Below are positions 11,409 to 45,392 of a stretch of 64,000 nt of DNA, piece by piece. A program made the position numbers and the translations under genes. Origin of the DNA: Halomarina litorea. GTDB lineage: Archaea; Halobacteriota; Halobacteria; Halobacteriales; Haloarculaceae. Position 1 is the stretch's first letter. Each line of letters begins with the position of its first letter. The stretch is from NCBI RefSeq assembly GCF_024227715.1, contig NZ_CP100448.1, positions 2,005,655-2,069,654 on the forward strand, written 5' to 3'. Under the pieces are notes generated by a model, which did no database searches, was not told where the DNA came from, and worked only from the letters and a program-made list of their open reading frames with translations.

Positions 11409-11825
11409 GTGAACCGGCGCTGGGCCCTCCCGTTCGGGTTCGCCATCGTGGTCGTCGCACAGGTCCTCGTCGCGGTGTTCGGCGGGACGCTCCTGACGGC
11501 CCCCTACGTGCTCGGCTACCTCCTGTTGACCCTCGCGGGGGGACTGTTCATCGTCGCCGGGACGGGCGAGACGCTGGTCGTCGGCGACCGCACCGTCCCG
11601 TGGTACCGGCTGGTCGGCCTCGCAGACGTCCTGCTGGCGGTCACGATGGTCGTCTGGTCCGTCGCGGACGCCACCGACGACGGGACGACGACGGCCGAAC
11701 TCCTCGTCCTCGTCGCCAGCGTGGGCGTGGCGCTCGCGCTCGGCTACGCGGGGATGGGCCTCGCGCGCGACCGGTCGCCGGCGCTGGCGCGTGAAGAGGA
11801 GGAGACCGCCGCGACGACGGAGTAG
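11409..11825 (+). CDS. Small membrane protein, four predicted helices
   Basis: A 138-residue protein starting at GTG (VNRRWALPFGFAIVVV). Four hydrophobic segments at roughly residues 7-27, 33-52, 72-92 and 98-120 indicate an integral membrane protein, with an acidic C-terminal tail ending EEEETAATTE on the cytoplasmic side by charge. It is convergent with elp3 (5 bp gap). Family not recognised and no functional residue stands out. Confidence 0.65.
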   Translation: MNRRWALPFGFAIVVVAQVLVAVFGGTLLTAPYVLGYLLLTLAGGLFIVAGTGETLVVGDRTVPWYRLVGLADVLLAVTMVVWSVADATDDGTTTAELLVLVASVGVALALGYAGMGLARDRSPALAREEEETAATTE

Positions 11826-11830
11826 CCGGC

Positions 11831-13486
11831 TCAGAGGTACGTCGAGACGTACGGGCCGTCCTGGTGGTAGCCCAGTTTCTCGCGGTAGTACTCGCGGACG
11901 CCGATGCCCGAGATGACCGAGAGCTTCCCGTAGCCGGCGTCGCGGGCGCGTCGTTCGGCCTCGCGGAGCAGTTTCGTCCCGTAGCCCCTGTGCTGAAAGT
12001 CGTCGTCGGAAGCGAGGCCGACGCCGACCTCGTTCCCGTAGACGTGGAGTTCGCGCACCACCGCGCCGTTCTCCAGTTCGCGGCGCACCGGGTCGCCGGG
12101 GAATCGCAGGCGGCAGAACCCGACGAGGAGGTCCTTCTCGGGGTCCTCGTAGCTGATGAACTGCTCGGTCCCCCCGCAGGCCTCGTACTCTAGCACATCG
12201 AGTTCGACGCGGTCCGGCGTCTCCTCGTTCATCCCCACCTCGCGACAGCGGATGCAGTCACACGTCCAGCCGTGTTCCTCCATGCGCTCGCGGGCCAGTT
12301 GCCTGAGGTTCGACTTCCAGACGCCCGCGTCGATGAAGTCGGCGGGGATGTCGCGCTGGACTCGCTGGAGGCGCGTGTACTTCGGAATCATCGACTTCAC
12401 CTCCGCGACGAGTTCGGCGGCCTCTTCGTTTCCCAGCGGGTCGTACTCGTCGCGCCGCCACATGTCGTAGGTGCGGGTCCCGCGGACGACGAGCGTGGGG
12501 TATATCTTCAGGTAGTCGGGCCGCCAGTCGCCGTTCTCGAACAGTTCGCGGAAGTCTTGCAGGCACATCTCGCGGTCCATCCCCGGCTGGCCGGGCATCA
12601 TGTGGAAGCCCACCTTGAACCCGGCGTCGCGCAGGCGGCGGTTCGCGTCCACGCTCGCCTGAATCCCGTGGCCGCGGTGCATCTCGCGGTTGATGCGCTC
12701 GTAGGTCGTCTGGACGCCGAGTTCCACCTTCGTCCCCCCGAGGTCGAGCATCCGGTCGATCTGCTCCGGGTCACACCAGTCGGGCTTGGTCTCGAAGGTG
12801 GTGCCGATGTTGCGAACGTCGGCCGTCTCGTTGGTCGCGACGACGTCCTCCAGATAGCGGAACTCGTACTCCTCGGGCGACTGGGCGAACGACTCGTCCT
12901 CGGCGGGTTCGGGTTCCTTCGTCACGTCGTAGTCGTTGAGCGCCTGCAGCGCCCGCTTGACGAACTCCTCCTGGTAGTCGTGGCTCCGGGCGGTCATCGT
13001 CCCGCCCATCAGGATGAGTTCCACCTTGTCGACGGGATGGCCGATCTTCCTGAGCTGTTCGAGGCGGAGCGTCACCTGCCCGTACGGGTCGTAGTCGTTC
13101 TGGACGCCGCGCGCGGCGGCGGGTTCGTGGCCGGTGTAGGACTGCGAGGAGTCGAACTCGCTCGCCGGCCCGCCGGGACAGTAGAGGCACTTCCCGTGGG
13201 GGCACATGTGCGGCGAGGTCATGATGGCGACGGGCGAGACGCCCGAGGCGGTGCGGACGGGCTTGCGCCGGAGGACGGGTTCGAGTTCCTCGCGGAGTTC
13301 GGGGTCCTGTTCGGCCGCGTAGTCGAGCAACTCGGAGTTCTTGGGGACCTTCGGCGCGGAGAACTCCGAACAGACGTCGAGTTTCGCGCTCTCTAGGTCC
13401 TCGCGGTCCACCTCGCCCGCGAGGATGCGCTCGACGAGCGCCTCGCAGACCCGCTCGAACGCGTCCGTCTCGGTTGCCGAGCTCAT
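11831..13486 (-). CDS. elp3: Elp3: tRNA uridine-34 5-carboxymethyl synthesis enzyme
   Basis: A 551-residue Elp3. The radical SAM cluster motif is C95-x4-C100-x2-C103 (MCPHGKCLYCPGG), and the surrounding SPVAIMTSPH, YDPYGQVTLRLEQL and ELGVQTTYERI segments are highly conserved in Elp3. The C-terminal acetyltransferase domain includes FQHRGYGTKLLREAE and ISGIGVREYYREKLGY. Archaeal Elp3 acts alone, using acetyl-CoA and SAM to make cm5U at tRNA wobble U34. Start ATG 13486 was chosen over the long upstream open frame because the text before it overlaps the next gene's end and is non-coding in style. Confidence 0.96.
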   Translation of the reverse strand: MSSATETDAFERVCEALVERILAGEVDREDLESAKLDVCSEFSAPKVPKNSELLDYAAEQDPELREELEPVLRRKPVRTASGVSPVAIMTSPHMCPHGKCLYCPGGPASEFDSSQSYTGHEPAAARGVQNDYDPYGQVTLRLEQLRKIGHPVDKVELILMGGTMTARSHDYQEEFVKRALQALNDYDVTKEPEPAEDESFAQSPEEYEFRYLEDVVATNETADVRNIGTTFETKPDWCDPEQIDRMLDLGGTKVELGVQTTYERINREMHRGHGIQASVDANRRLRDAGFKVGFHMMPGQPGMDREMCLQDFRELFENGDWRPDYLKIYPTLVVRGTRTYDMWRRDEYDPLGNEEAAELVAEVKSMIPKYTRLQRVQRDIPADFIDAGVWKSNLRQLARERMEEHGWTCDCIRCREVGMNEETPDRVELDVLEYEACGGTEQFISYEDPEKDLLVGFCRLRFPGDPVRRELENGAVVRELHVYGNEVGVGLASDDDFQHRGYGTKLLREAERRARDAGYGKLSVISGIGVREYYREKLGYHQDGPYVSTYL

Positions 13487-34997: not shown

Positions 34998-36689
34998 ATG
35001 ACCGAGCGCGGTCCGGACGCGTCGTCGCCCGGCGACGAAGCCGGCCCCCCCGAACTCGTGGTCGCGCCCACCGTCGACGGCCTCGCGACGGCGCTTACCC
35101 ACATGCCCTCCCGCCTCCGGGCGACGGCCCCGGAGCGCTCACACCCCGCCGTTCGCCCCCACCCGCCGCTGGTCACGGTCGACCCGGACGCCGCGGAGAC
35201 GACGGTACCCGGGTCGCTCGCGGCGGCGCGTCCCGACACCGAGGTCCACCTCGCGCTCCCGGCCGACCGCGAGCACCTGTTCGTCGCCGCGCCGCTGGCG
35301 TACTACCTCGGTGCCGCGGTGTCGGTCGGGGCCGACCAGCCGCGCCTGTCGACCCCCGGCGGTGAGTACGACCTCGACCCGTTGCCGGCGTTCCAGCACG
35401 AGGCCGCGGCACTCCTGCGCGACGTCTTCACCCTCGACGCCCTCGTCCGCGACCTGTCCGGCGAGGGGCGCGCGTGTCGCGTCGACCTCGTGACCGACCT
35501 CGGCCTCTGCCCGGCGGGCCTGCGCGGGTCGTCGCCGGGCGTCCGCCTCGACGCCTACCTCGGCGTCGACCGGGACCGACTCGCCGGGAAGCGTCCGGAG
35601 TGGCACCTCTCGACGTACGCGGACCCGACCGACGAGGCGCTTCGGTGTCTCCCCTTCCTGCTCGACGCCCTCAGCCTCGTCTACCTGCCGGAGTCCTCGG
35701 ACATCGACGAACAGGGCCTCCTGCGCTACTCGCTTGACGACTTCTACCGGTGTCCCCCCGGCGGGCGGGTCGCCTCGGTGGACGTCGTCGAACCGACGCT
35801 CCACTCGGGCGAACTCCACGCGTGGCTGGCGGAGGGCGTTCCCGTCTCCGCGTTCACTCTCAGGCCGGCGGCGTTCGAACACCGGCGCGCGGCCCCGCCG
35901 CCGGACGGCGAACTCGCCGTTGCGGTCGTCCTCAACGACGGTTCGATGGCAGGCGAACACGACGTGGTCGCCGACACCTACCGGAAACGTGCTGAGGGCC
36001 TGCCCGCGTCGGTGTCGCTCTACGAGTCGCTGCGCGCCGACGAACTGGCCGACCTGCTGGAGACGCCACACGACTTCGTCCACTACATCGGCCACTGTGA
36101 GGTTGACGGCCTCCGGTGTCCGGACGGGAGCCTCGACTGCGCGAGTCTCTCGACGTCGGGGGCGCGGACCTTCTTCCTCAACGCCTGCGGGTCGTTCCAC
36201 CAGGGACGGACGCTCGTCGACGCGGGGAGCATCGCGGGAGCCGTCACGCTCCGGACCGTGCTGAACGAACAGGCGGCGACGGTCGGGACGACGTTCGCCC
36301 GCCTGCTGATGCGCGGATTCGGCATCGAGCGGGCGATGCAACTGGCCCGCCGACAGATCATGATGAGCACCGACTACACCGTCGTCGGGGACGGCACGTT
36401 CTCGCTCACGGACGCCGAGCCGTCGGTCCTGAAGGTCGAACCCCTCGGACAGGACGGCGGGAACGACGAGGAGGCCGCCTACGCCGTCACCTACACCGTC
36501 CCCGCGGACGGCTGGCCGGGCGGAAGCTACCGCGCACCCTTCGAGGACTGTCGACGACTGCGGGGGACGACCGTCGAGACGACGCTTAATGCCCCGCAGG
36601 TGCGCGATTTGCTCGAAGAACGATGGATGCCGGTCGTCCACGACGGGTCGCTCCACTGGAGTGATGAATTCCTCGTGAATTTCACGTAA
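34998..36689 (+). CDS. CHAT-type caspase-fold protease-like protein
   Basis: A 563-residue soluble protein. Near the C-terminus is a His-Cys dyad arranged as in CHAT peptidases: VHYIGHCEVDG (His366 as the likely base) and TFFLNACGSFHQG (Cys397 as the likely nucleophile), followed by AVTLRTVLNEQAATVGTTFARLL, shown partly as the usual GA-x-A strand-helix. The first 300 residues are acidic and mixed alpha/beta with no named domain. CHAT proteins cut target proteins in death, defence or signalling systems. No partner such as TPR or Cas genes adjoins it. Next on the same strand is a TbsP-like regulator. Confidence 0.7.
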   Translation: MTERGPDASSPGDEAGPPELVVAPTVDGLATALTHMPSRLRATAPERSHPAVRPHPPLVTVDPDAAETTVPGSLAAARPDTEVHLALPADREHLFVAAPLAYYLGAAVSVGADQPRLSTPGGEYDLDPLPAFQHEAAALLRDVFTLDALVRDLSGEGRACRVDLVTDLGLCPAGLRGSSPGVRLDAYLGVDRDRLAGKRPEWHLSTYADPTDEALRCLPFLLDALSLVYLPESSDIDEQGLLRYSLDDFYRCPPGGRVASVDVVEPTLHSGELHAWLAEGVPVSAFTLRPAAFEHRRAAPPPDGELAVAVVLNDGSMAGEHDVVADTYRKRAEGLPASVSLYESLRADELADLLETPHDFVHYIGHCEVDGLRCPDGSLDCASLSTSGARTFFLNACGSFHQGRTLVDAGSIAGAVTLRTVLNEQAATVGTTFARLLMRGFGIERAMQLARRQIMMSTDYTVVGDGTFSLTDAEPSVLKVEPLGQDGGNDEEAAYAVTYTVPADGWPGGSYRAPFEDCRRLRGTTVETTLNAPQVRDLLEERWMPVVHDGSLHWSDEFLVNFT

Positions 36690-36813: not shown

Positions 36814-37626
36814 ATGAACTCGAACTTACTCGAGTCAGATGTGGAAGCGCTCCTCGGAGCGGCACTCGCGGACGCCGACGGTACGGCCTATCTGGTCAAC
36901 CCGTCCGCCGAGACGCTCGAAGCCGCCATCGAGGCCGTCGAGGGAGCCGAGGACGTCTCGGTCCGCCTGCTCGGCGGGGAACGAACGCTGAAGGACGTCT
37001 TCGGCGACTTCATCGTCGCGAGCACGGCCGCCGACCTCATCGACGCCGGTCGCCTCGAACTCCGGACGTTCGACGACGCGGCGAACACCCTCATCATCAC
37101 CGAGGACGCCGTCGTCGCCGTCGTCGCCGCCGGTGACATGGTCGCGGGTCTCGTCACCGACGACGACGACTTCGTCGACCGCGCCCTCGAGCAGTACGCC
37201 GACACGTGGGAGGCGAGCGAGAGCTTCAACCTCCGGACGCCCGCCATCACGCGCGTCCGTCAGTCCCTCTCGACCGAAATCGGCGACGACGTCGCCGCCG
37301 ACTTCGACAGCGTCCTCGCGTCGCTGGAGACGGCCCGCGGCGACGGCGACGGCCTCGACGAGGTCACCATCAGCCTGCTCGTGGCCGCGAAGAACGAGGA
37401 ACTGCTCTACGACATCAGCAAGTGGGGCGAGGACGTCGGCATCGCGTCGAAGGCGACGTTCTCCCGCACCAAGACCCGGCTGGAGGAGATGGGCCTCATC
37501 GACACCGAGAAGGTCCCCATCGACGTGGGCCGCCCGCGCCTCCGCCTCGTCCTCGGCGACGACCGCCTGCGCGGTGCCGACAACGGCGAACTCGCCAACG
37601 TCGCCCAGTCCCTGCTGGCGTCCTGA
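36814..37626 (+). CDS. tbsP: TbsP-like transcriptional regulator (DUF5821 type)
   Basis: A 270-residue protein resembling haloarchaeal TbsP. The N-terminal 180 residues form an acidic alpha/beta domain (GTAYLVNPSAETLEAAIEAV, RLLGGERTLKDVF). The last 90 hold a winged helix-turn-helix: LLVAAKNEELLYDISKWGEDVGIASKATFSRTKTRLEE is the DNA-reading part, quoted only in pieces: SKATFSRTKTRLEEMGL. TbsP acts with TrmB on glycolytic gapII control in Haloferax by published work, but assignment of this gene rests on recalled similarity. It is preceded by its own strong TATA box. Confidence 0.65.
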   Translation: MNSNLLESDVEALLGAALADADGTAYLVNPSAETLEAAIEAVEGAEDVSVRLLGGERTLKDVFGDFIVASTAADLIDAGRLELRTFDDAANTLIITEDAVVAVVAAGDMVAGLVTDDDDFVDRALEQYADTWEASESFNLRTPAITRVRQSLSTEIGDDVAADFDSVLASLETARGDGDGLDEVTISLLVAAKNEELLYDISKWGEDVGIASKATFSRTKTRLEEMGLIDTEKVPIDVGRPRLRLVLGDDRLRGADNGELANVAQSLLAS

Positions 37627-37708: not shown

Positions 37709-37762
37709 ATGACGGACGAACGGGAACGCCTTTTTGACCGTCGGACCAGCGAGGAGACATGA
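37709..37762 (+). other. 17-codon upstream ORF overlapping the YcaO start
   Basis: ATG 37709 encodes MTDERERLFDRRTSEET and its TGA overlaps the YcaO ATG as ATGA. It has no Cys, so it is a poor azoline precursor. Its middle contains a T-rich run that could be the TATA element of the YcaO promoter, which would make the frame fortuitous. Confidence 0.25.
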
Positions 37763-39459
37763 CTGTCGCACTCGTCGGTGACGGCCCCGCGGCGGACGCG
37801 GTCCGGGTGACCCTGACCGACGCCGACGCGGCGCTGACGACGACCGACCCGGCTGGAATCGGGGAGGCGACTCTCGCCGTCGTCGTCGCGGGCGTCGGCG
37901 AGGGAGTCCACGAGACCGCGAACGAGGTGGCCCTCGACGCGGGCGTCCCCTGGCTCGCGGTGGAACTGGGCGGTGTCGGCGCCACTGCGGTGTCGGGCGT
38001 CGAGGCCGCCGTCTCCGGCTTCGGACCCGATACGGCGTGCTACGACTGCCTCGGGGGACGGGTCGCCGCGAACCGCGACGGGAACGACGGGGGGGACGCG
38101 ACGCCCCCGGACGCGGCGACGGCCCGTCTCGCGGGCGCACTCGCCGGTCGCGAGGCCGTCCGCCTCCTCGACGGCGCCTCGGACGTCATCGGGTCCGTCA
38201 CCGAGGTTCCTCACGCGCGGCGCGACCTCCTCCCCCTCCCGCGCTGTACGTGCGGATCCGGGGTCGACCGGACGCTCCGACAGGAGTACGCCCCGCAGGA
38301 CCTCGACGGCGCGCTCGACCGGGCGGAACGCGCCGTCGACGACCGCGTCGGCATCGTCCGGCAGGTGGGCGAGGTGGCGTCGTTCCCTGTCCCTTACTAC
38401 CTCGCGCAGGTGGGCGAGACGACCGGCTTCAGCGACGTACAGGCGAGCCAGCAGGCCGCGGGGGTGGCGCTGGACTGGGACGCCGCGTACATGAAGGCCA
38501 TCGGCGAGGCGCTGGAACGCTACAGCGCGGGCGTCTTCTCGACGGCCGACTTCGGCACCGCCCGGGCCGGCGACGTGCCGAACACGGTCGGACTGGACGA
38601 GTTCGTCCTCCCCGACGACGTGGAGACGGGCGGCCAGCGCCGGTGGGTCACCGGCGAGCACCTCCACGACGGCGAGTCCGTGTTCCTCCCCGCCGAGCGC
38701 GTGCAGTTCCCCCTCTCGGGTGCGGGGCCGACCATCACGACGGGCCTCGGCCTCGGGAACTCGGGTGCCGAGGCGCTCGTCGCGGGCCTCACCGAAGTCG
38801 TGGAACGCGACGCCGCCATGCTCTCGTGGTACTCGACGTACGACCCGCTCGGACTCGCCGTCGACGACGAGGGGTACGACACCCTCGTCCGGCGCGCCCG
38901 CTCGGAGGACCTCTCGGTGACGGCGACGCTCCTGACGCAGGACGTGGACGTGCCGGTCGTGAGCGTCGCCGTCCACCGAGAGGGCGAGTGGCCCCGATTC
39001 GCCCTCGGGACGGACGCCGACCTCGACGTGGCGAACGCGGCCCGCGCTGCGTGCTGCGAGGCGCTCCAGAACTGGACGGAGCTCTCGCGGATGGGGAAGG
39101 CGGACGCCCGGAACGCGGGCGGACGCATCGGCCACTTCGCCTCCCTGCCCGACTCCGCGCGGGCGTTCACCGACCCCGAGACGACGATACCCGCCGACAG
39201 CGTCGGCGACGACGTCGCGGGGGAGGACGAACTCGACGAACTACTCGGACGGGTGGGAGACGCCGGACTCGACGCCTACGCCGCCCGCCTGACTCCGCGC
39301 GACGTGGAGCGACTGGGCTTCGAGGCGGTTCGCGTGCTGGTCCCCGAGGCGCAACCGCTGTTCATGGGCGAGGCCTACTTCGGGGAGCGCGCGGAGACGG
39401 TTCCGGGGGACCTCGGGTTCGAGGCTCGACTCGGCCGGGAACACCACCCGTTCCCCTGA
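37759..39459 (+). CDS. Single-chain YcaO-family protein with N-terminal E1-like zinc domain
   Basis: A 566-residue protein. Residues 1-165 form a ThiF/E1-like Rossmann fold (TVALVGDGPAADAVRVTL) with a zinc tetrad C94, C97, C163, C165 (CYDCLGG and CTCGSG). From about 190 follows a YcaO domain, with ATP/Mg acidic helices AYMKAIGEALERYSAG, LVAGLTEVVERDAAML and ARAACCEALQNWTELSR. The chain ends EHHPFP, near the Pro-rich end of azoline-forming YcaO proteins. YcaO enzymes phosphorylate amide oxygens to make azolines, thioamides or amidines. No precursor peptide or TfuA gene adjoins, so its target is unknown. Confidence 0.82.
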   Translation: MTVALVGDGPAADAVRVTLTDADAALTTTDPAGIGEATLAVVVAGVGEGVHETANEVALDAGVPWLAVELGGVGATAVSGVEAAVSGFGPDTACYDCLGGRVAANRDGNDGGDATPPDAATARLAGALAGREAVRLLDGASDVIGSVTEVPHARRDLLPLPRCTCGSGVDRTLRQEYAPQDLDGALDRAERAVDDRVGIVRQVGEVASFPVPYYLAQVGETTGFSDVQASQQAAGVALDWDAAYMKAIGEALERYSAGVFSTADFGTARAGDVPNTVGLDEFVLPDDVETGGQRRWVTGEHLHDGESVFLPAERVQFPLSGAGPTITTGLGLGNSGAEALVAGLTEVVERDAAMLSWYSTYDPLGLAVDDEGYDTLVRRARSEDLSVTATLLTQDVDVPVVSVAVHREGEWPRFALGTDADLDVANAARAACCEALQNWTELSRMGKADARNAGGRIGHFASLPDSARAFTDPETTIPADSVGDDVAGEDELDELLGRVGDAGLDAYAARLTPRDVERLGFEAVRVLVPEAQPLFMGEAYFGERAETVPGDLGFEARLGREHHPFP

Positions 39460-39484: not shown

Positions 39485-40654
39485 TCAGATACCGAACGTC
39501 GCCCGGAGCATGTCCCGGGTTCCGGGACCGAGACCGACGGCGACGATGGCGACGAGGAGGAGGATGGCGTACCGGGGGTTCTCCTCGAAGATGGTCTCGT
39601 CGAAGATGTAGACGACGGCGGTGGCGGCGACGATTTTCACGAGGAGGAAGGGCCACGCCCGCCCGATGGTGTCGATGACCGACGGCGGGAGGACGGCCCC
39701 CGTGACGTTGATGATGAACTCGTTGACGGGGTGTTTCGGCGAGTAGGAGAAGGGCAGGCCGAGCAGTTCCGCCCAGTCGGCTGCGAGGACGTTCGCCACG
39801 CCGTCCAGCGCGTGGGCGAACAGGACGACGAAGCTCATCAGGCCCGTGCCGGCGGTGACGGCGGGCGCGGCGCGGTCGTAGAGGAGGTAGAGGCCGCCGG
39901 CGATGACCGTCGAGAGGATGAGCGTGAGCAGGAGGATGAGCGGGTAGAACCCGGCGCTCGGGTGTTCGGGGCCGAGGCGAGCCGTCGTGAACCAGACGAG
40001 GTACCCGACGGTCGCGACGAGGACTGCCGACCCGATGGCCGCCAGCGGGTACTCGTACCGGGAGACGACGTCCCGGCGGGCGAGCGCCACCGAGAGGACG
40101 AGTGCCGCGAGCGTGATGGCGAAGACGGTGAAGTAGATGACGGGACTGATGATGAGCGAGTTCAGCGGGTAGGCGATGCCCGGTTCGACGCCCTGCGGGA
40201 CGGCGTCGTTCGCGTCCTCGACGACGCGCAGTGCGCCCCCGAAGAACATGAACGGGATGAGCGCGAAGAGCAGGCCGCGCTCGCGGCCCACCTTCAGTCG
40301 GCGCAGGAGGAAGAGGACGCCGGCGAGCATGAACACGAGCGTGGCGGCGTAGCCCACCTCGGAGACGAGAGTGTAGCCGGGTTCGGCGACGATGTTCCCG
40401 CCGGCGGCGACGGCCTCCTCGCAGGCAGCCGTGGAGTAGAGCAACTCGGTCGTGCCGCCGCCCCGCACGGCACAGGCAGCGTTGTTCGCGTCCGCGAAGA
40501 CGGGCCCCCAGAAGTAGTGCCAGAGGAAGCCGTCCCAGACGGTCCCGCGGAAGACGAGGGACCCGCCGACGAGGGCGACGAGGGCGACGGCGGCGGTCAG
40601 AAGCCACACCCGTTCGGGGCCGAGGCTCCGACCGAACCGGTGGTCGAGTTCCAT
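39485..40654 (-). CDS. DUF63 family membrane protein
   Basis: A 389-residue integral membrane protein with eight or more hydrophobic helices. It matches the DUF63 pattern: [14 protein letters not shown] near the N-terminus, [33 protein letters not shown], a central [20 protein letters not shown] and [13 protein letters not shown]. The charged ALRVVEDAN segment is the conserved loop of the family. Function unknown; found through Euryarchaeota. It is convergent with the YcaO gene (25 bp) and monocistronic. Confidence 0.85.
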
Positions 40655-45036: not shown

Positions 45037-45120
45037 TGCGAGGGGTAGGATTTGAACCCACGGACCTCTACAGGAGCGGAGCTTGAATCCGCCGCCGTTT
45101 CCAGACTTGGCTACCCTCGC
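45037..45120 (-). tRNA. tRNA-Leu (anticodon CAA)
   Basis: A full class II tRNA reads on the minus strand. Acceptor stem GCGAGGG pairs with CCCTCGC, discriminator A. D-arm GCCAAGTCTGGAAACGGC, anticodon stem GCGGA/TCCGC with loop TTCAAGC (anticodon CAA, reads UUG), a long variable arm, and T-arm GTGGGTTCAAATCCTAC. No intron and no encoded CCA. The 84 bases end precisely at the paired stem. Confidence 0.96.
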
Positions 45121-45191
45121 ACGCGACCGAGTGTATCCCGTCTCGGGGTTTCAAGGCTCCGGTTCGCGGTGTGTCCGGCCGGGAGCCTCCG

Positions 45192-45392
45192 TCACTTGGT
45201 GTAGACGGCCATCACGTCCACCGTCGGGCCAGCCCTGACGATTCCGACGACCCAGATGCCGTGGTTGTATCCGCGCTCGATGAAGTTGTAGGCGAACTCG
45301 CCGGCGTTGTAGTTCCCACCGGGGCAGCGGTGGAAGCCCAGCGTCGTCGCCCGCCTCGAAGCCCCCAGTTTCGGAACCGGAATGGTATATGT
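45192..45392 (-). pseudogene. Start-less reading frame, probable gene remnant
   Basis: A frame ending at 45192 reads LGFHRCPGGNYNAGEFAYN and then FIERGYNHGIWVVGIVRAG before MAVYTK and a stop. This does not look like noise: it is rich in aromatic and Gly residues and free of Arg-Pro runs. Upstream it stays open to a TGA near 45434 without any ATG, GTG or TTG. It is best read as the C-terminal end of a decayed gene, possibly a small surface or secreted protein. Family not recognised. Confidence 0.35.

Follow-up and report, generated by a model that had tools for sequence, protein, structure and literature searches.

The closest described relatives of the protein analysed here are the haloarchaeal 'haloazolisin' proteins, which belong to the same family and are likewise short fused proteins with a weak C-protein domain. 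Cox et al. (2015; PMC4603692) named the family the haloazolisin cyclodehydratase, described its N-terminus as missing, expressed doubt whether a TOMM is made, and counted 31 precursor candidates and nearly 100 haloazolisin clusters. Costa et al. (2023; PMC9953058) reported ycaO in all haloarchaeal genomes, placed the Haloferax gene in an SHMT/folD setting, and suggested that it may serve a pathway common to these organisms; the proposed precursors were not alike across species, and in two of these they were interrupted by stop codons. In the same study, deletion of ycaO from Haloferax mediterranei had essentially no effect on viable counts or antagonism and produced an FTIR shift; since the deletion was viable, the gene is not essential there. 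Neither the family nor the idea of a housekeeping pathway is therefore new, and no substrate of the haloarchaeal enzyme is named in the literature found on haloarchaeal YcaO, haloazolisin and YcaO-made thioamides or azolines.

Two YcaO systems are known to act on proteins rather than on peptides. The McrA-thioamidating enzyme (TIGR03266), which goes with TfuA, has the YcaO domain in common with the protein described below. The other, Escherichia coli YcaO, is an orphan without an RRE that modifies a folded ribosomal protein, uL16, making this the second known case of protein thioamidation by a YcaO; it required Na2S, ATP and Mg in vitro and carries a TPR domain (PMC13063428).

The window, a stretch of 64,000 nucleotides from Halomarina litorea (contig NZ_CP100448.1), contains one ycaO gene, which a genome search showed to encode the sole YcaO of this genome. 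Its product joins an E1-like domain to a YcaO domain and ends in REHHPFP (Table 1). The first-pass annotation had described just such a single chain of 566 residues with an HHPFP end, and placed its start at 37709, which belongs to a 17-codon frame; ycaO itself begins at 37759. The YcaO domain scored 147 bits against the Pfam model PF02624 (curated cut-off 25.7). Residues 235–566 cover the full length of TIGR03604, the model for SagD-type TOMM cyclodehydratases, with a borderline score of 217.1 bits (cut-off 219.25); other scores for the same protein were 214.7 and, with neighbours in frame, 219.8.

Table 1. Features of the ycaO locus in window coordinates; fractions refer to the aligned orthologues or compared loci.
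Feature	Positions	Strand	Remarks
CHAT-like protein	34998..36689	+	563 aa
tbsP, transcriptional regulator, neighbour	36814..37626	+	NF047393, 390 bits; ORF from 36760, likely start 36814
17-codon frame	37709..37762	+	judged not a gene; on the promoter-like T-run
T-run of presumed own promoter (TATA-like)	37731..37735	+	−28 to −24 relative to the ATG
ycaO, fused E1-like/YcaO protein	37759..39459	+	566 aa plus stop, one chain
E1-like (ThiF/SagC-type) domain	37759..38274	+	residues 1–172; profile and fold comparisons
First Cys pair, C94/C97, presumed zinc site	38038..38049	+	51/54 orthologues each
Second Cys pair, C163/C165, presumed zinc site	38245..38253	+	51/54 and 50/54 orthologues
YcaO domain	38461..39351	+	residues 235–531; PF02624, E 1.1e-42
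ATP/Mg site motif E250-x-x-E253-R254	38506..38520	+	54/54 orthologues
ATP/Mg site motif E346-x-x-E349-R350-D351	38794..38811	+	54/54 orthologues
ATP/Mg site motif E434-x-x-Q437	39058..39069	+	54/54 orthologues
C-terminal HHPFP, cyclodehydratase-type end	39442..39456	+	HP[FY]P in 54/54 orthologues
DUF63 membrane protein, convergent neighbour	39485..40654	-	31/54 loci
Small ORF of a tRNA-related cluster	45052..45204		overlaps tRNA-Leu

The identity of the N-terminal part was established from profiles and from predicted structure. Residues 33–166 aligned with haloarchaeal SagC-type proteins over 128 columns with an hhalign probability of 97.6, with both Cys pairs in register. The whole protein was poorly predicted (mean pLDDT 41.7, three sequences), and the fold search was therefore carried out with the E1-like domain alone (mean pLDDT 69.6, three sequences), which matched ThiF, MoeB and E1 enzymes with Z scores of 12–13. 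E1 and ThiF proteins also led the Foldseek matches to this domain, with LynD at rank 12 and MusD matched as well. A profile of 24 aligned copies found LynD weakly (E 0.0013), at the right place. The cyanobactin heterocyclases LynD and TruD are built like the window protein, with an E1-like domain carrying a CxxCL..R motif followed by the YcaO domain, and profiles match both parts. LynD, however, has 775 residues, of which the first ≈125, including its RRE, have no counterpart in the window protein: our chain begins inside the E1-like domain and the alignment starts at LynD residue 126. With no residues ahead of that domain, the enzyme carries no leader-binding RRE, which could possibly be supplied in trans. 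Unlike in the LynD and TruD systems, no cyanobactin genes or precursor were seen near the window gene.

Conservation was assessed in an alignment of 54 orthologues, consisting of the window protein and those from 53 of 55 fetched loci (L048 and L087, in which the gene caller found no ycaO, were left out); L002 and L045 are apparently one genome, so that the 54 rows represent 53 genomes. The first-pass annotation had made its reading depend on conservation of the acidic ATP-binding residues, and nine ATP-site and adjoining positions proved to be invariant in all 54 sequences, including the E250-x-x-E253-R254 motif that we take, from YcaO structures, to be ATP-binding. The HP[FY]P end was equally constant in the universal orthologues and was absent from all 22 YcaOs taken, irrespective of McrA type, from the other classes of the phylum. 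The Cys residues of the zinc site that had been proposed for the E1-like domain were also found, the set of four being complete in 50 of the 54 sequences, although zinc itself is presumed. One orthologue (L084) has three Cys and one His in their place, and in three members of family f4 (L056, L091 and L092) all four Cys have been lost as a set, with the ATP site still intact. The presumed zinc thus appears to be dispensable. The median pairwise identity of the orthologues was ≈54% (44% for the E1-like part and 58% for the YcaO part), compared to ≈74% for SHMT and FolD, 59% for TbsP and 50% for DUF63 from the same loci. The lower conservation relative to SHMT and FolD suggests that contact with a substrate need not be tightly constrained.

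A search of the 292 genomes of the class recovered the fused protein from 290 (E ≤ 1e-10). The two that lack it, L147 and L148, belong to a single family (f11); neither gave a weaker YcaO match or a SagD-type match, and in both the tbsP locus lies on a gap-free 20-kb stretch from which ycaO is missing. These two (same order, tbsP kept, YcaO absent) offer a useful comparison for finding the substrate. In a 294-genome sample of the phylum, all of the matches outside the class, among those listed, started at profile position 151 or later, which indicates stand-alone YcaOs without the E1-like part.

The only neighbour that commonly adjoins ycaO on the same strand is tbsP, which lies upstream of it in 33 of 54 loci. 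SHMT (31 loci) and FolD (21 loci) are found farther upstream, a setting that the window gene's family has in common with haloazolisin in Haloferax (PMC9953058), and no consistent same-strand gene follows ycaO in the 54 loci. TbsP was considered as a functional partner, but it was present in all 12 genomes tested, including both of those without YcaO, and dependence of one on the other is unsupported.

The gene probably has a leaderless promoter of its own, judging from the bases upstream of its start. Leaderless transcripts, with a TATA box positioned near −27, are common in haloarchaea. Among the 42 start-anchored orthologues, that is, those with a start codon at the aligned start, 34 had TTTT within −32 to −25 of the start, compared to 0–2 of 42 in non-overlapping windows, and the A/T fraction of the orthologous upstream regions rose to 0.76–0.95 at −29 to −26 from about 0.3 around it. 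This element bears on the 17-codon frame that had been noted across the ycaO start. The frame exists, has no Cys, and overlaps the ATGA of ycaO with its TGA, but it spans the promoter-like T-run, and nothing corresponding to it lies within 60 bases upstream of the gene in the same-genus loci L034 and L035; we consequently judged that it is not a peptide gene and rejected it as a precursor. In 10 of the 42 start-anchored loci, a frame beginning with an out-of-frame ATG ran open into the ycaO start, and the clusters listed in the small-ORF survey included no shared peptide family at this position.

That survey, which was similarity-based, covered 1442 small ORFs in the 54 universal loci and yielded no conserved Cys/Ser/Thr-rich precursor family. 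It did find a ≈70-residue acidic protein without Cys (6 loci), a zinc-ribbon protein (6 loci) and frames related to tRNAs; the largest clusters, which span up to 14 loci, appear to be frames within or next to tRNA genes, and include one member in the window (Table 1). Conserved frames inside folD were also considered as a precursor and rejected, since genes of high GC content have open alternative frames in any case: the antisense codon-register frame contained only 0–2 stops (medians) in the five genes tested, a comparison for which stop counts alone were used because the alignment was gappy. ORFs overlapping folD are therefore cheap.

A contrast was provided by genomes that carry a second, distant YcaO, seen in 7 of 38 genomes examined, which had been picked for diversity and partly for having shown two YcaO matches. 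These second-copy clusters (L074–L080) resemble the universal gene in having SagD-type YcaOs, HP[FY]P-like ends and C proteins homologous to the E1-like domain, and the three tested scored over the SagD cut-off (241, 278 and 245 bits). They differ from it in having separate C and D proteins, with SagC or other leader-binding proteins, SagB dehydrogenases and Cys-rich precursors, none of which occur at the universal locus; several also have neighbours that, judged by eye, are ABC-transporter-like. Their small ORFs resemble textbook precursors, with ends such as STCTTTSTCRGTTTSTTVSTN (L077), CGGGGGCGGGGCSCGADVTNSN (L074) and GGRCSSSSSTCCCSPS (L079). Cys-rich candidates lie at L077:6814-7008, L080:12188-12328 and L079:7061-7210, and others at L074:7221-7454 and 11621-11836 and at L075:11509-11727. 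A single precursor filter, fixed post hoc after these examples had been seen, rang at 7 of 7 second-copy loci compared to 2 of 54 universal loci. Six of the seven matches are convincing; that in L078, where the position of the YcaO was set by hand and is approximate, looks like a zinc-finger protein, as does one of the two universal-locus matches (L044, zinc-finger or zinc-ribbon). The survey method thus sees precursors where they exist. The first-pass annotation had reported neither a precursor nor TfuA near the gene, and for the precursor this now holds for the neighbourhoods of the haloarchaeal homologues as well, with no conserved precursor family beside them in the 54 loci. In this respect the locus departs from the haloazolisin description: the protein itself is no different, and it is the gene cluster and the precursor that are missing from the window locus.

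TfuA, for its part, was found in 0 of 145 genomes of the class by a search in which Methanosarcina acetivorans rang as a positive control. The window YcaO scored 77.2 bits with the McrA thioamidation model TIGR03266, far below its cut-off of 365, and gave no match to the E. coli-type model NF040716 at E ≤ 0.001. SagB, a dehydrogenase type that is a non-obligatory feature of a TOMM/RiPP cluster, had no match in the genome of H. litorea or in 108 of the 145 class genomes; it was matched in the other 37, over the cut-off in 34. A tree from a quick search, with long branches for L121, L074 and L078, recovered the universal group as one side of a branch with an SH-aLRT of 98, and put it together with the haloarchaeal second-copy TOMM cyclodehydratases on one side of a further branch, with a support of 100, that split both from the other-class YcaOs. 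The absence of TfuA, the lack of an HP[FY]P end in other-class YcaOs and the position in the tree favour, at the level of sequence, azoline chemistry over TfuA-dependent thioamidation. TfuA, which had been put forward as a natural partner of YcaO, is thus unsupported in that role for a protein that groups with SagD-type cyclodehydratases.

We consider the best explanation, with a probability of roughly 0.5, to be that ycaO encodes a stand-alone, class-wide, ATP-dependent enzyme of the cyclodehydratase (SagD/azoline) type that modifies backbone amides in a core protein or peptide encoded elsewhere in the genome. The YcaO domain would bind ATP and Mg and phosphorylate a backbone amide, and the side chain of an adjacent Cys, Ser or Thr would close onto the amide to give an azoline. 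The fused E1-like domain would serve as a scaffold or for substrate docking rather than as an activating enzyme. The enzyme would recognize its substrate with no leader-binding RRE of its own, much as E. coli YcaO does folded uL16; since the RRE is missing, and the E. coli enzyme shows that a folded surface can be read, the substrate is probably a structured protein. A stand-alone gene with its own promoter and no adjoining substrate gene probably modifies an everyday protein of the cell. A housekeeping target had already been raised as a possibility in the first-pass annotation, and it fits the presence of the gene in all but two genomes of the class, the stand-alone promoter and the lack of a precursor-like small ORF. 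The viable deletion, the two genomes without the gene, the moderate divergence of the protein, its borderline TIGR03604 score and the fact that no target or product was found count against this explanation. The narrower proposal, that in almost every haloarchaeon this enzyme places a housekeeping azoline or another backbone mark on a core protein with a defined structure, is more tentative.

The same enzyme might instead thioamidate a core protein, for example one of the ribosome, using sulfur directly. Both of the known protein-directed YcaOs, acting on MCR and on E. coli uL16, make thioamides (PMC13063428), and E. coli YcaO is like the window protein in being an orphan with no precursor and no RRE, for which a conserved housekeeping role is plausible. 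Because that enzyme worked with Na2S, ATP and Mg, the absence of TfuA is not decisive on this point (PMC13063428). However, E. coli YcaO has its TPR domain where the window protein has the E1-like domain, neither thioamidation model recognizes the window protein, and the HP[FY]P end and tree placement are those of the cyclodehydratase type; we regard a thioamide as unlikely. A natural product, that is, an azoline-containing RiPP (haloazolisin) with a precursor nearby or elsewhere, would agree with the grouping with TOMM cyclodehydratases and with the 31 published candidates (PMC4603692), and our survey was confined to the loci, so that a precursor could be encoded in trans. Yet precursor-like ORFs that are clear at second-copy loci have no conserved equivalent at the 54 universal ones, the H. 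litorea genome has no SagB, the enzyme lacks an RRE in front of its E1-like domain, and near-universality is unlike a RiPP cluster. The dissimilar and interrupted precursors reported by Costa et al. (PMC9953058), and the ease with which open frames arise opposite folD, point the same way, and such a product seems improbable. The loss of the presumed zinc site from three orthologues and the slight phenotype of the deletion (PMC9953058) might also suggest that the protein is retained as a scaffold, degenerate or without catalytic activity, that serves in structure or regulation, but the invariance of the ATP-site motifs and C-terminus in 54 of 54 sequences makes this very unlikely.

Backbone modification of ordinary proteins is rare, and the thioamidation of MCR and uL16 is all that is known of YcaO action on proteins. 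If the haloarchaeal enzyme does mark a core protein in this way, it would be the first of the cyclodehydratase branch of YcaO to act on a protein, and would imply an undiscovered modification of a core protein in archaea that are easily grown and genetically tractable. Genome-mining counts of archaeal TOMM clusters, such as the nearly 100 assigned to haloazolisin (PMC4603692), would then include many that do not make natural products. What is added here to the published descriptions is the promoter-like element, the contrast with true TOMM clusters, the absences of TfuA and SagB, the C-terminal signature and the tree.

Two other proteins were observed near ycaO on the same strand. In the window, the 563-residue protein upstream of tbsP has a weak match to CHAT (caspase-like) proteins that falls short of the cut-off (E 0.0019), and CHAT-like homologues lie upstream of ycaO in 18 of the 54 loci. 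The zinc-ribbon micro-protein of ≈55 residues follows ycaO in L040, L044, L051, L053, L068 and L072; it was rejected as a partner because it is found at these 6 of 54 loci only. Its distance from ycaO is 98–178 bases, except in L051, where it is 1177.
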